Source: a virus. Taken from it: 47,934 nucleotides of DNA. Position numbers and translations under genes: made by a program. Positions 13,006 to 20,195 of this stretch are shown here, one piece after another. The notes under the pieces were generated by a model. It did no database searches, was not told the DNA's origin, and saw only the letters and a list, made by a program, of their open reading frames with translations. Each line of letters starts with the position of its first letter. Within the stretch, counting starts at the first letter, position 1. The DNA is taken from IMG/VR virus record IMGVR_UViG_3300033153_006421, positions 1 through 47,934 of that record; one strand, given 5' to 3'.

Positions 13006-13390
13006 TGTCTCCGTCGTTGTCGCCCTCGAGCTGACCCAGGCATGGCTTGATGACGCCCGCTCCAGCGGGGAGCGCATCGACACCAGCGTCCGCGCGATGG
13101 CACCTCACCGGAGTCGCGATGCCTCAGCGGTCAAGCGCTCACTCCGCGACGGGCTGCTGAGGATCGGGCAGAAACTGAGCCATCGCGACGAGGACGGCTG
13201 GCTCATCTGCGAGCGCTACGTGGGTACGTCATGGGACGGCGAACTGCTGGCGTACGTAACGTACGTGCGCCGGGAGCCGGACCGGGAGATCGCCTACTAC
13301 CGGGGGCAGGTCGACGAGTTGCTGGGCCTGGGACGGGAGGTCCCGGAGTGGCTCACGGATCGGATTGAGTGGTTGAGGGCTCGGTCATAG
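12995..13390 (+). CDS. hypothetical protein at the end of the late operon
   Basis: A 131-residue soluble protein rich in Arg, Asp and Glu with a C-terminal Trp-containing helix. No family recognised. It overlaps the preceding gene by 11 nt. At its 3' end it overlaps the convergent methyltransferase gene by 38 nt, tail to tail. A small GGGAC/GTCCC hairpin near 13330-13345 is the only terminator candidate seen. Confidence 0.6.
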   Translation: MSNDVSVVVALELTQAWLDDARSSGERIDTSVRAMAPHRSRDASAVKRSLRDGLLRIGQKLSHRDEDGWLICERYVGTSWDGELLAYVTYVRREPDREIAYYRGQVDELLGLGREVPEWLTDRIEWLRARS

Positions 13391-14456
13391 CCGCCCGAAT
13401 GAACGTCGCTGCCACCTCTGCGTTGATCGCGTTGCCGTAGCCCTTCAGCCGCCCGACGCGATTACTTCTTGCACGACGAGCCATGCCTGAAAGCCAGGGC
13501 TCGCCTCGTCCCACTCCTCGGGCAATCCCATGAGCCAGCGGGGAAGTGCCGGGTTCAACTGGCCTTGCCCTCCCGTCTGCACAGGGGATCCATTCGCAGT
13601 CGCACCAGAAGCCAGGCTGACCACCTGTTCCTGCAACGGCCGGCCCTCGTTCTTGATCTGCCTGTCGAGCGTCTTGCTGTTCTGGTTCTTGCCCGACCCG
13701 TGACCGTCGCTCTTGGTCGGAGTCGCCCACCCCGCCATCCTCGAGGCGTCCACCAAAGTCACTCCCGCGTGGTGCTTGCTGTCCGGGTTGTGTCGTGTCG
13801 CCGTGGCGTTGGCGGCGTTGGCGGCGTCCTGTTTCGTTGGCGTGGGCCAACCCGCCAGAACTGACACTGCCGCCAAGTCCGGCCCGTGTTTCCGGGCACA
13901 TTCGATGATCGCCCCCTTCTCCGACCTGACACCTTTGGTTGCGAGCGCCTTGGTTGGTGTGGGCCACGAAGAACAGCCGCTGCCGGAGGTGCGGTGCGCC
14001 GACGCTACAAGCCGGCAGAGACGCCGCCCCGACGGCATATCCCACGCCTTCCAGGTCATTCGATACAAGGTCGAACCACGTCCGGCCAGCTCGGCTCGCA
14101 ACCTGCTCTCCAAAGATGACTGGAGGACGGCACTCGCGAATGAGCCGGAACCACTCGGGCCAGAGGTGGCGAGGATCCTCGAAGCCTCCACCACTACCGG
14201 CGGCAGAAAACGGCTGGCACGGACAGGAGCCGGTCCACACTTCTCGGTCATCGGGCCACCCAGCGAGCCTGAGCGCGTGGGACCAGACGCCGATCCCGGC
14301 GAAGAAGTGGGCTTGGGGGGCGTCAACAAGGTCTGCTGGCTGGACATCGGCGATGCTCCTTGGGTCGATACGGCCAGGCGTAATGTGGTCGGCGTCTACC
14401 AGGTTGTTGAGCCACTCGACGGCGAAGGGTTCGATCTCGTTGTAGTAGGCGCTCAC
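13353..14456 (-). CDS. DNA (cytosine-5) methyltransferase
   Basis: A 367-residue C5 methyltransferase. Motif I is FAGIG (about 52-56), motif IV PCQPFS with catalytic C80, motif VI a variant FGEQV (E117; ENV in most enzymes), motif VIII QRLFFVA (about 159-165), motif X GYGNAIN near the end. The region 170-310 is the Gly/Arg/Gln-rich target-recognition part. The GTG at 14456 is chosen because VSAYYNEIEPFAVEWL is the usual N-terminus of this phage subfamily and because it overlaps the preceding TGA (GTGA). No restriction partner is present, so it likely modifies phage DNA against host restriction. A second long frame overlaps it. Confidence 0.92.
   Translation of the reverse strand: MSAYYNEIEPFAVEWLNNLVDADHITPGRIDPRSIADVQPADLVDAPQAHFFAGIGVWSHALRLAGWPDDREVWTGSCPCQPFSAAGSGGGFEDPRHLWPEWFRLIRECRPPVIFGEQVASRAGRTWFDLVSNDLEGVGYAVGAASLPACSVGAPHLRQRLFFVAHTNQGARNQRCQVGEGGDHRMCPETRAGLGGSVSSGGLAHANETGRRQRRQRHGDTTQPGQQAPRGSDFGGRLEDGGVGDSDQERRSRVGQEPEQQDARQADQERGPAVAGTGGQPGFWCDCEWIPCADGRARPVEPGTSPLAHGIARGVGRGEPWLSGMARRARSNRVGRLKGYGNAINAEVAATFIRAAMTEPSTTQSDP
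13445..14347 (-). CDS. overlapping-frame ORF within the methyltransferase gene (WPTP-repeat family), translation unproven
   Basis: A 300-codon frame lies entirely inside the methyltransferase gene in another frame. It reads as a recurrent phage protein type: MSSQQTLLTPPKPTSSPGSA at the start, then LQSSLESRLRAELAGRGSTL, YRMTWKAWDMPSG, repeated WPTPTK/WATPTK units, and a terminal LNPALPRWLMGLPEEWDEA. Similar chains are commonly annotated in phages. They might be truly dual-coded, or only a shadow of the conserved methyltransferase frame. No clear ribosome-binding site precedes the ATG. Confidence 0.35.
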   Translation of the reverse strand: MSSQQTLLTPPKPTSSPGSASGPTRSGSLGGPMTEKCGPAPVRASRFLPPVVVEASRILATSGPSGSGSFASAVLQSSLESRLRAELAGRGSTLYRMTWKAWDMPSGRRLCRLVASAHRTSGSGCSSWPTPTKALATKGVRSEKGAIIECARKHGPDLAAVSVLAGWPTPTKQDAANAANATATRHNPDSKHHAGVTLVDASRMAGWATPTKSDGHGSGKNQNSKTLDRQIKNEGRPLQEQVVSLASGATANGSPVQTGGQGQLNPALPRWLMGLPEEWDEASPGFQAWLVVQEVIASGG

Positions 14457-14671
14457 TTTGCCTGCCCCACCAGCCGCTGCAACACCCCGACATCCACCTC
14501 CACAGTCGACACCCGCCGCCCACACCCGAGGCACTCCCGCTGCCGCCATATCCACCCGTCCGGGGCCAGGACGCTGCACAAGCCCCGGATCGCGCTGGGA
14601 ATCCATGCCGTGGACCTGTGGTCGCGGGTGTCCGTGACTCGGGTTTCGCCGTGGCACCGGTGGCAGGTCAC
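14453..14671 (-). CDS. NrdR-like zinc-ribbon protein
   Basis: A 72-residue protein beginning (GTG) TCHRCHGETRVTDTRDH and ending with RQRECLGCGRRVSTVEVDV. Two CxxC pairs and the REC..C.RR..T.E pattern match the N-terminal zinc ribbon of the NrdR repressor, but the ATP-cone domain is absent and about 20 residues are inserted. It is linked to both neighbours by 4-nt GTGA overlaps. A small DNA-binding regulator is the likely role; control of ribonucleotide reductase is not implied. Confidence 0.6.
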   Translation of the reverse strand: MTCHRCHGETRVTDTRDHRSTAWIPSAIRGLCSVLAPDGWIWRQRECLGCGRRVSTVEVDVGVLQRLVGQAK

Positions 14672-16547: not shown

Positions 16548-16669
16548 CTCTCGATCCTCCTCTTCGCTCGAACCACCCCAGCCTCGACCGCGCACACCGC
16601 AGCCAGGCTCCATCCCCACGCGACCACGATCCCGTCCATTGCTCGGCGGGCGAAGGTGTGGAGGGTCAT
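16544..16669 (-). CDS. 41-residue membrane micro-protein
   Basis: It encodes MTLHTFARRAMDGIVVAWGW followed by a hydrophobic SLAAVCAVEAGVV and a basic end (RAKRRIER). Both its start (16669) and its stop (16544) make 4-nt ATGA overlaps with flanking genes, which strongly supports real translation despite its size. One membrane span with cytoplasmic basic tail. Function unknown. Confidence 0.55.
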   Translation of the reverse strand: MTLHTFARRAMDGIVVAWGWSLAAVCAVEAGVVRAKRRIER

Positions 16670-17517
16670 TTTGGCTCCTGCTGCGCGCGGTACCGGTCGG
16701 CGGCGGCGCGGTCTTGTTCCGTGAAATCATCCATGATGCCCGCAGTGTGCCCGCAGTGTGCTGCCTCTTCGCGCACGTCGTGAGCGAGTCGCCCATACGC
16801 ATCAATCAGCCCCTGCACCCCGGCCACCACATCGCTGTCGATCTCGTTGGCGACGAGGATGGCGTGGATAGCGTCGAGCTTGCGGGCTTTGTTTTCCACG
16901 TCTGCGAGGGCGGCAATGGCAGCGCGCCACACGTCCTCGGCCGGCGCTTCGGGTTCCGGGGCGGCGGGTGTCGACCACTCCACTTCGCGGTCGATGGCAT
17001 GGTGCGGCCCCGCGTGTCCGGAATACCCCTCACATGAATAGCTCGGGGCGGCACCGCGAACCGAGTTGCATATGGGCGGGGCCTGCTCCACGGGCGCGGG
17101 GGCGAGGTCGCCATGGTCCGGCTCGCAGTTGGTGCACTCGTAGGTGTGATCGCACGGGGCGCGGGTCGGTGGAATCCTCGCCGCCGGGTGCAGCCCGCCG
17201 TCTGCAGCGGGGGTGTGGCGGCGGTTCCAGGCTTCACGAGCAAGTCGCTGTGTTGTCCCGAGAGGACCAGACGCCCCGCACGATGAGCACCTACAGCGAT
17301 ACGCCATCCCTTCGGGTTGAACTGTGGCCGTACGGCCCCCGCAATGTGCGCACGGCAGCAACCCGTCCGCGTTCGGGGCGGGGGCGGCGAGGGCGGCATC
17401 CTTGATCGCCGCCTCCAGCGCGTCGCCCAGGAACACCCCGCCCCTGTCCGACCGGTTGTTCTCGATGGCGTAGCGCACCGAATCGAGGAGCTCGTGGGTG
17501 TCTTCCCTGGTCGCCAT
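16666..17517 (-). CDS. Lar-like zinc protein with extra C-terminal regions
   Basis: A 283-residue protein. Residues about 53-100 match the Lar restriction-alleviation domain: LPCAHCGG, then YRCRCSSCGASGP and AREAWNRR. Known Lar proteins of lambdoid phages help unmodified phage DNA escape type I restriction, but many Lar-domain proteins are untested. After it come a second Cys/His-rich part (CDHTYECTNCEPDHG, YSCEGYSGHAGPHH) and a helical tail. It starts at ATG 17517 after a GGGAG site, just downstream of a strong promoter, so it probably leads its transcript. Confidence 0.65.
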   Translation of the reverse strand: MATREDTHELLDSVRYAIENNRSDRGGVFLGDALEAAIKDAALAAPAPNADGLLPCAHCGGRTATVQPEGMAYRCRCSSCGASGPLGTTQRLAREAWNRRHTPAADGGLHPAARIPPTRAPCDHTYECTNCEPDHGDLAPAPVEQAPPICNSVRGAAPSYSCEGYSGHAGPHHAIDREVEWSTPAAPEPEAPAEDVWRAAIAALADVENKARKLDAIHAILVANEIDSDVVAGVQGLIDAYGRLAHDVREEAAHCGHTAGIMDDFTEQDRAAADRYRAQQEPK

Positions 17518-17538
17518 GGTATCTCCCTGTCTCTGTTG

Positions 17539-17567
17539 TATATACACGGGATACAGCACGTAGTCAA
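17539..17567 (-). promoter_or_regulatory. sigma70-like promoter for the 13.4-17.5 kb accessory block
   Basis: Read on the minus strand, TTGACT (17567-17562) and TATATA (17544-17539) are separated by exactly 17 nt. It lies in the 54-nt gap between the 17572 gene end and the Lar-like gene start, pointing into the latter. Match to consensus is 5 of 6 at both boxes. This should be a host-polymerase, early-type promoter. Confidence 0.7.
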
Positions 17568-18188: not shown

Positions 18189-18626
18189 CTACTTGCCTTC
18201 GAGCGCGATGGCGCTGCTCGCCTGCCACCGGGCCTTGAGCAACTCGTCGCCCGCCATGCCCAGAATGTGCTTGAGGTAGTCGACGTCGAAGATGTCGCCG
18301 CGCTCCTCGTTGGCGAGATGCCCGGCGATGACCTCGTTCATGGCGTTGCGGGCGAGCCGGATGCAGCGGACGGCTGCGCTGGTGTCCGCGCTACCGGGGC
18401 AGTTGTCGCACACGGCCCTGGCGAACTGCTTGCAGGCGTCGTTGACGCTCGCGTACGTCGCTGGCGTGACCTTCTCGATGTAGTGGCCGATGAGGTTCGC
18501 GTGGATGGTGGCGATCACGTCGCGCGCTTCGGTCTCGGCCTGACGGATCGCCAGATACTTCGGAGCCTGCTCAGCGGTCGGCGCGTGGTAGGTGAAGAGC
18601 GTGTCGAGGTCGGGAAGTGGGTTCAT
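18189..18626 (-). CDS. Acb2/Tad1-hairpin-like protein, putative cyclic-nucleotide sponge (anti-CBASS)
   Basis: A 145-residue protein. Residues 11-28 (FTYHAPTAEQAPKYLAIR) carry the signature of the Acb2 family (T4 Vs.4, Pseudomonas PaMx33 Acb2), and residues 68-95 (FARAVCDNCPGSADTSAAVR..) and 134-145 (WQASSAIALEGK) match its second helix and C-terminal end. Known Acb2 hexamers sequester cyclic di- and trinucleotides and so disarm CBASS immunity. Usual members are about 65-95 residues. Here two extra helical segments (about 30-66 and 102-132) are inserted. Starts at ATG 18626 after GAGGATCG. Family membership is judged from memory of the motif; ligand binding is inference. Confidence 0.72.
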   Translation of the reverse strand: MNPLPDLDTLFTYHAPTAEQAPKYLAIRQAETEARDVIATIHANLIGHYIEKVTPATYASVNDACKQFARAVCDNCPGSADTSAAVRCIRLARNAMNEVIAGHLANEERGDIFDVDYLKHILGMAGDELLKARWQASSAIALEGK

Positions 18627-18639
18627 GTCGATCCTCTGG

Positions 18640-19537: not shown

Positions 19538-19710
19538 GGCTTCACCCCGAACTCGATCTCGAGCGCATCGACGCCGCGCTCCACCGCCATGCGCATCACC
19601 GCGGTGAGTGAGATGCGGTGGGACGGCAAGGCCGCGGTCACCGCGGGGACCAGGCGCTCCAAGCGGGCGCGCAGCTTGGGGGCCAAGCGGAGGGGGATCG
19701 GGTGGCTCAT
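19534..19710 (-). CDS. ribbon-helix-helix regulator
   Basis: A 58-residue protein: a beta strand IPLRLAPKLRARLERLV followed by two helices including ISLTAVMRMAVERGVDAL, the Arc/MetJ ribbon-helix-helix plan. Such dimers bind short palindromes. It is the best candidate in the window for the protein recognising the palindromes near 27.3, 32 and 35 kb, but this link is only a guess. The ATG at 19710 overlaps the resolvase stop and follows GGAG. Confidence 0.6.
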   Translation of the reverse strand: MSHPIPLRLAPKLRARLERLVPAVTAALPSHRISLTAVMRMAVERGVDALEIEFGVKP

Positions 19711-20195
19711 CGTTGTCGGCTCCATCGGACTGCTCCATGCTCTCTGAGGTAGTGGGCGCCGATGCCGATGGCATCCCACCCGTCGTGTGTGGTACGCGGG
19801 GCTACCCGCTGAAGCTCGTCTGTGGTGAGGATCTCTCTGAGGTAGTCGTGCTCGACGTCTTTGGGCCGGCTGCCCTTCCACTGGCTCGGCTTGTACCCGA
19901 CGCCAGGACAGGGGAGCATGCCCAGCACATAGCCTCCGACGCCCTGCAGCTGGAGCATGGCATCGAGCTTCGCCCCTGTGGTCCTGCGGTCGCGCTGCAT
20001 CTCCTCGATGACAGCCACGTCCACAGGGGCGAAGGGGTCCAGAGCCAGGCCGACCTGCCGCGCTGCGCGGTGCCAAGCCGGCGGGCCTGTGTCGGTACCG
20101 GGGCTGCGGACCGTGCAGGCATGGACCAGCGCGTCGTGGTGGAAAACGGCTAAACCGAGTTTGCGCAGGCCGGGGTCGATAGCGACGAGGATCAT
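19707..20195 (-). CDS. RuvC-like Holliday-junction resolvase
   Basis: A 162-residue RNase H-fold nuclease. MILVAIDPGLRKLGLAVF supplies D7, VAVIEEM supplies the Glu at about 64-65, and THDGWDAIGIGAH supplies D138 and D141: the four acidic residues of RuvC with the same order and spacing. QWKGSRPKD (about 105-113) fits the RuvC loop before the last motif. Likely resolves branched replicating phage DNA before packaging. Coupled on both sides by ATGA overlaps. Confidence 0.85.
   Translation of the reverse strand: MILVAIDPGLRKLGLAVFHHDALVHACTVRSPGTDTGPPAWHRAARQVGLALDPFAPVDVAVIEEMQRDRRTTGAKLDAMLQLQGVGGYVLGMLPCPGVGYKPSQWKGSRPKDVEHDYLREILTTDELQRVAPRTTHDGWDAIGIGAHYLREHGAVRWSRQR

Follow-up and report, generated by a model that had tools for sequence, protein, structure and literature searches.

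Sponges of the Acb2 type rank with the smallest immune-signal blockers known. Acb2 blocks CBASS by binding cyclic di- and trinucleotides and keeping them sequestered. Its protomer consists of a short N-terminal helix followed by one hairpin of two long antiparallel helices, and the protomers form a compact homohexamer with three dinucleotide pockets. The ligand sites are formed where identical hairpins meet, and the N-terminal and C-terminal ends of the protein build the cyclic-dinucleotide pocket; in PaMx33 Acb2 the residues that contact the ligand are presumably Tyr11 and Lys26. Tad1 carries an N-terminal antiparallel beta-sheet before its hairpin (PMC12043709).

The window analysed here is a stretch of 47,934 nucleotides, positions 1 to 47,934 of the IMG/VR record IMGVR_UViG_3300033153_006421. 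It represents an uncultured virus genome with a family A DNA polymerase, a PD-(D/E)XK nuclease, a VapE-like protein and a C5 cytosine methylase, and its terminase shows only remote similarity to known terminases (22% to that of a Roseobacter phage). The gene under study lies within a series of minus-strand genes, and the following features define it and its surroundings:

18189..18626, minus strand: putative long-form sponge gene, 145 aa, stop codon included in the coordinates (ORF, PF24729 match at the cut-off, 12 full-length homologues)
18632..18637, minus strand: AGAGGA 5 nt upstream of the start codon, probably the ribosome-binding site of the gene (read from the sequence)
16666-17559, minus strand: ORF with a Lar-type restriction-alleviation domain at residues 67-114 (PF14354, E 4.8e-7, above the cut-off)

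The ATG of the ORF is at position 18626 in the ORF list of the window. The sequence-only reading had placed the motif FTYHAPTAEQ...KYLAIR at the N-terminus of the product and ASSAIALEGK at its C-terminus, and both were found in the 145-aa protein. Long chance ORFs are frequent on both strands of the window, and one might suppose that in this GC-rich genome the ORF arose by chance or by misassembly. This supposition, to which we assign practically no probability, is refuted by the occurrence of full-length homologues with 33–47% amino-acid identity in independent contigs. The Lar-domain gene is situated two genes past the sponge gene on the same strand; this agrees with a counter-defence neighbourhood without proving one. 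Elsewhere in the window, the C5 cytosine methylase gene (13353-14657, minus strand; PF00145, E 6e-18) is overlapped over about 900 nt by an ORF with an ATG start in another frame (13445-14347, minus strand). The end of this ORF, LNPALPRWLMGLPEEWD, looks protein-like, and the overlap could represent dual coding, a frameshift or chance. An ORF of 162 aa at 19707-20195 (minus strand), which starts with MILVAIDPGLRKLGLAVF, is RuvC-like by eye and had no Pfam match.

The comparison with Pfam gave PF24729 (Acb2_Tad1_hairpin) as the single credible family for the window protein, with 27.0 bits and E 5.3e-6. This score reaches the cut-off of 27 only exactly and is the sum of two partial stretches, residues 12-41 (profile 1-30) and 55-99 (profile 10-48), whose profile ranges overlap; T4 Vs.4 and PaMx33 Acb2, which are sponges known from experiments, scored 66-71 bits. 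PF24729 also matched all 13 long forms described below with E-values of 0.01 or better, and one of them, L146, reached 31.4 bits. The 145-aa window protein is thus a member of the Acb2/Tad1 hairpin family, the assignment made by the sequence-only reading, and the profile search proposed there as a check returned the family. BLAST and phmmer detected no recognisable overall identity of the window protein to Acb2 (PaMx33/PaP2, T4 Vs.4), and neither PADLOC nor NCBIfam gave a model for it. Matches to PF17894 (Cas9_Topo; 15.3 bits vs a cut-off of 25) and to 5i7n (E 0.31) were rejected as chance.

As a reference we built a profile of the ordinary family from 98 distinct members of about 72 aa; at 145 aa the window protein is indeed about twice the usual length, as had been claimed. 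These members were drawn from further loci and from matches to a degenerate DNA pattern for TYHxPxxxQxxxYxxI, a motif of the window protein. The pattern matched 119 stretches of viral DNA, compared with 8 chance matches for an out-of-frame version used as a control, and among the matches listed nearly all are PF24729-type proteins of 60-90 aa. The residues T, Y, H, P, Q, Y and I are fixed in the 98 members by the pattern selection; Arg18 (96/98) and Asn53 (97/98) are not fixed by it. The hairpin loop of PaMx33-type Acb2 (L010-L014, L087) is strongly length-variable, giving proteins of about 74-117 aa with conserved ends. Two observations concern individual ordinary members. Genes for putative sponges of the TYHPP type in Paenibacillus and Brevibacillus phages (KT151955, KT361654, MG727698, NC_048693) are labelled '(putative) phosphomannomutase', which is probably a misannotation. 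In the 302-aa proteins L165 (693-1598, plus strand) and L147, an ordinary Acb2-type hairpin at residues 2-65 is fused to a part of about 230 residues with similarity to major head protein families of PHROG (E 1e-7), which apparently comprises two repeats.

When the window protein alone was used as a query, neither a set of 50,697 phage records nor a first scan of IMG/VR gave a close relative. L146, a protein of 140 aa with the same layout and about 47-49% identity (47% by tblastn, 49% in the alignment), came from the TYHxP-pattern search, and the others were obtained with patterns of its further conserved blocks and by two alignment-based scans. Altogether the long-form layout was present in 12 further distinct proteins of 125-147 aa that are 33-47% identical, and the layout is therefore more than a chance occurrence. 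The long forms constitute an unrecognised subfamily of at least 13 sequences, namely the window protein, L146, L226, L224, L222, L235, L259, L260, L263, L265 and L267 from viral contigs and L269 and L270 from a proteobacterial MAG. They have three conserved blocks, FTYHxPT...Y.AIR.AE, P..AD..AA.RC(I/V)RLARNAxNEA and KARWQA.SAIA..GK, with two length-variable linkers between them. A protein search with three long forms among the 50,697 phage records gave none of the long type, and among 379 genomes belonging to a single phylum only the MAG already known was recovered. The literature searched contained no description of a long Acb2-type form, which is apparently undescribed as far as these searches reach. 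The long-form sponges L269 (826-1233) and L270 (5986-6399) differ from each other and lie on separate contigs of the same proteobacterial MAG of 9.3 Mb; they perhaps come from two phages or prophages.

Alignment with the 98-member profile gave three strong blocks in the window protein: residues 11-28 correspond to profile positions 1-18, residues 63-92 to 19-48, and residues 133-144 to 49-60. Residues 29-62 and 93-132 are therefore the extra material. The sequence-only reading had put two extra helical segments at about residues 30-66 and 102-132; these positions are close to ours. The form is shared by a subfamily of at least 13 members, and the segments look like further copies of the hairpin helices H1 and H2 rather than arbitrary helices. 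The parts of the protein are as follows:

18492..18596, minus strand: outer H1 with the N-terminal motif FTYHxPT..Y.AIR.AE, residues 11-45 (profile 1-32, strong over 1-18 and weak over 19-32; helix 21-45)
18465..18491, minus strand: linker 1, residues 46-54, length-variable among the long forms (alignment; helix break in the model)
18315..18464, minus strand: inner hairpin H1'-loop-H2', residues 55-104 (profile 11-59, 32.7 bits; hhalign 12-58, E 6.5e-13; helices 56-75 and 80-109)
18285..18314, minus strand: linker 2, residues 105-114, length-variable among the long forms (alignment; in the model partly helical, at the end of H2')
18192..18284, minus strand: outer H2 with the C-terminus KARWQASSAIALEGK, residues 115-145 (hhalign 110-145 = profile 40-61, z about 9; best register 49-60; helix 115-141)

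The inner hairpin is an almost complete ordinary hairpin that lacks the TYHxP motif, and R133 and W134 of the outer H2 are invariant in the long forms. AlphaFold2 models were obtained for the window protein (six long forms in the input; pLDDT 88.7, pTM 0.84) and for L260, the long form of 125 aa in which the linkers are shortest (13 sequences in the input; pLDDT 96.4, pTM 0.89). The predicted helices comprise residues 7-11, 21-45, 56-75, 80-109 and 115-141 in the former and 4-10, 21-42, 48-65, 70-91 and 95-121 in the latter. Both models are all-helical, in line with the helical type of fold expected by the sequence-only reading, and both show a short N-terminal helix followed by four long helices rather than one hairpin. 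PDB fold searches with the models returned only generic four-helix bundles (e.g. the FAT domain) and no Acb2 chains. In a structural search the sole significant match was A0A6J5S3V7 (E 8.8e-6, 28% identity, TM 0.62/0.70), an uncharacterised protein of 128 aa from an uncultured Caudovirales phage that carries no annotation; judged from the structural match, it is probably another long form. Influenza hemagglutinin HA2 also matched the profile of the long forms (E 0.02 and above); these matches were discarded as helix look-alikes.

The origin of the extra segments was addressed by profile-profile alignment of single segments with column-shuffled controls. Residues 21-48 and 52-77 aligned to H1, residues 78-106 and 110-145 aligned to H2, and each of these four segments failed against the other helix of the profile. 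The two H2 copies matched each other best of 87 registers. Moreover, R93 and R133, which are invariant in the long forms, both fall at profile position 49, where Arg occurs in 0/98 ordinary members. Since the segments match in a helix-specific manner and an invariant Arg that is absent from the 98 ordinary members is found in both H2 copies, we favour a nested duplication, giving the helix order H1-H1'-H2'-H2, and consider it about twice as probable as unrelated inserts. The inner part would then have arisen by duplication, for which the H1 evidence is weak: the two H1 copies ranked 2 of 80 against each other and 12 of 102 when the motif was left out, and outer H1 beyond the motif is not convincingly like inner H1. 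The second-copy blocks are individually weak (ranks 2-4 of about 135 registers), and in the nested arrangement each block would have remained conserved chiefly in a single copy. A plain tandem duplication would give H1-H2-H1-H2 and place H2-like sequence between the outer and the inner H1; none is present there, and this arrangement was rejected. The alternative, which corresponds to the sequence-only reading, is an ordinary Acb2 hairpin interrupted at the same height by two helical inserts unrelated to it. It draws on the observation that the strong blocks, profile positions 1-18, 19-48 and 49-60, together make exactly one hairpin, and that outer H1 is only weakly H1-like beyond residue 28; the length variation in the PaMx33 group indicates that extensions of the hairpin loop are tolerated in ordinary Acb2. 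Such a protein would still be a four-helix sponge, without a second hairpin copy, and the inserts would alter its assembly or cover the pocket. However, the two inserts would need to have acquired H1-like and H2-like character in the right order by chance, and both H2 stretches would have to share the substitution to Arg at one and the same profile position. We consider this alternative unlikely, although still a serious contender to the nested duplication.

The ligand end of the long form was compared with that of the known sponges. Tyr13 is present in 13/13 long forms and Arg28 in 11/13, and their spacing of 15 residues equals that of Tyr11/Lys26 in PaMx33 Acb2 and of Tyr8/Lys23 in T4 Vs.4. 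Tyr13, Arg28 and the AIA..GK end are kept once per chain. Conservation and helix angles place the conserved polar residues R87, R90, R93, N94, N97 and E98 of inner H2 on one face. We propose that the long form serves phages as an Acb2-type counter-defence protein in which one hairpin lies inside another (H1-H1'-H2'-H2), and that each chain would fold as a four-helix bundle equivalent to two hairpins, i.e. a pseudo-dimer. The outer copy would retain the C-terminus and the N-terminal TYHxP...Y..IR motif, which correspond to the pocket-forming regions of Acb2, and the inner copy would supply the middle of the hairpin and the new polar face. The chains probably assemble via their outer ends, and they would hold the host cyclic nucleotide alarm signal, so that effectors of the CBASS type would not be activated; the inside of the bundle might form a second site or a rebuilt interface. 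A nucleotide sponge of pseudo-dimeric chains is the most likely function. The analysis shows that the protein belongs to the family, how it is laid out, that 13 proteins conserve this form and that its helices are predicted with confidence; we infer the assembly, the ligand, the sequestration and the target system of the long form, and we regard the explanation as a whole as probable, with modest confidence.

The sequence-only reading had also suggested that the additions could create a second ligand pocket, alter the number of chains in the oligomer or extend the range to other signals such as Thoeris products. The R87-R90-R93-N94-N97-E98 face, helped by R133 and W134, may make the inner hairpin a second, new ligand site, a suggestion that we put forward tentatively and think rather doubtful. 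If it were true, each chain would combine an Acb2-type pocket at the outer ends with a different nucleotide pocket in the bundle, and more host signals would be covered than by Acb2. Nothing points specifically to Thoeris signals, since neither the AlphaFold model of the window protein nor that of L260 contains a beta-strand, unlike Tad1 with its N-terminal sheet.

The genomic positions of the sponge genes bear on whether the long form could have lost nucleotide sequestration. When the other genes of the window were compared with the remaining long-form loci, counterparts were either absent or merely remote, so that the long-form gene seems to travel between unrelated phages. A transferable counter-defence gene is expected to sit among unrelated genes, and the contexts of the long-form contigs fit this expectation. 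In Gordonia phages Schomber and Hanem and in L266 (4121-6001), ordinary or long sponge genes adjoin or overlap the end of the portal gene. The direct succession of portal and long-form gene in L266, the fusion of an ordinary sponge to a major-head-protein-like part in L165 and the many positions near the inner hairpin that differ from the ordinary family could be taken to mean that the protein is a member of the fold family with another role, for example a structural or regulatory one in the virion-assembly region. We judge this improbable, since Tyr13 and Arg28 at the ligand end are kept, the neighbours vary by contig, unlike those of a virion part, and portal genes also adjoin ordinary sponges. 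Because a portal gene precedes the long form in L266 and other genes do so elsewhere, position does not define its function.

Acb2 (PaMx33/PaP2, PDB 8H2J; T4 Vs.4, PDB 7UQ2) and the long form are alike in belonging to PF24729 with its helical hairpin, in having an N-terminal Tyr and a basic residue 15 residues apart, and in ending with a C-terminus of the ...A.A(I/V)A type. They differ in that Acb2 has 88-93 aa and one hairpin per chain, whereas the long form of the window has 145 aa and four helices. The closest relatives of the long form are the ordinary TYHPP-type members of PF24729 (PHROG 1454), which have the identical FTYHxPxxxQ..Y..IR motif and AIAxxGK end; the D37/R43/R46 subgroup, about 41 of the 98 ordinary members, is nearest. 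These proteins of 60-90 aa form a single hairpin and have Val at profile position 49 and no inner polar face, whereas the long form has Arg at that position. With Tad1 the long form shares the PF24729 hairpin by Pfam's definition, but its models lack the N-terminal beta-sheet of Tad1. The long forms add 13 uncultured sequences that are visible to profile searches only near the threshold. If real, a chain of two hairpins, one with the ligand motif and the other changed, would allow the way in which sponges acquire specificity to be tested directly.
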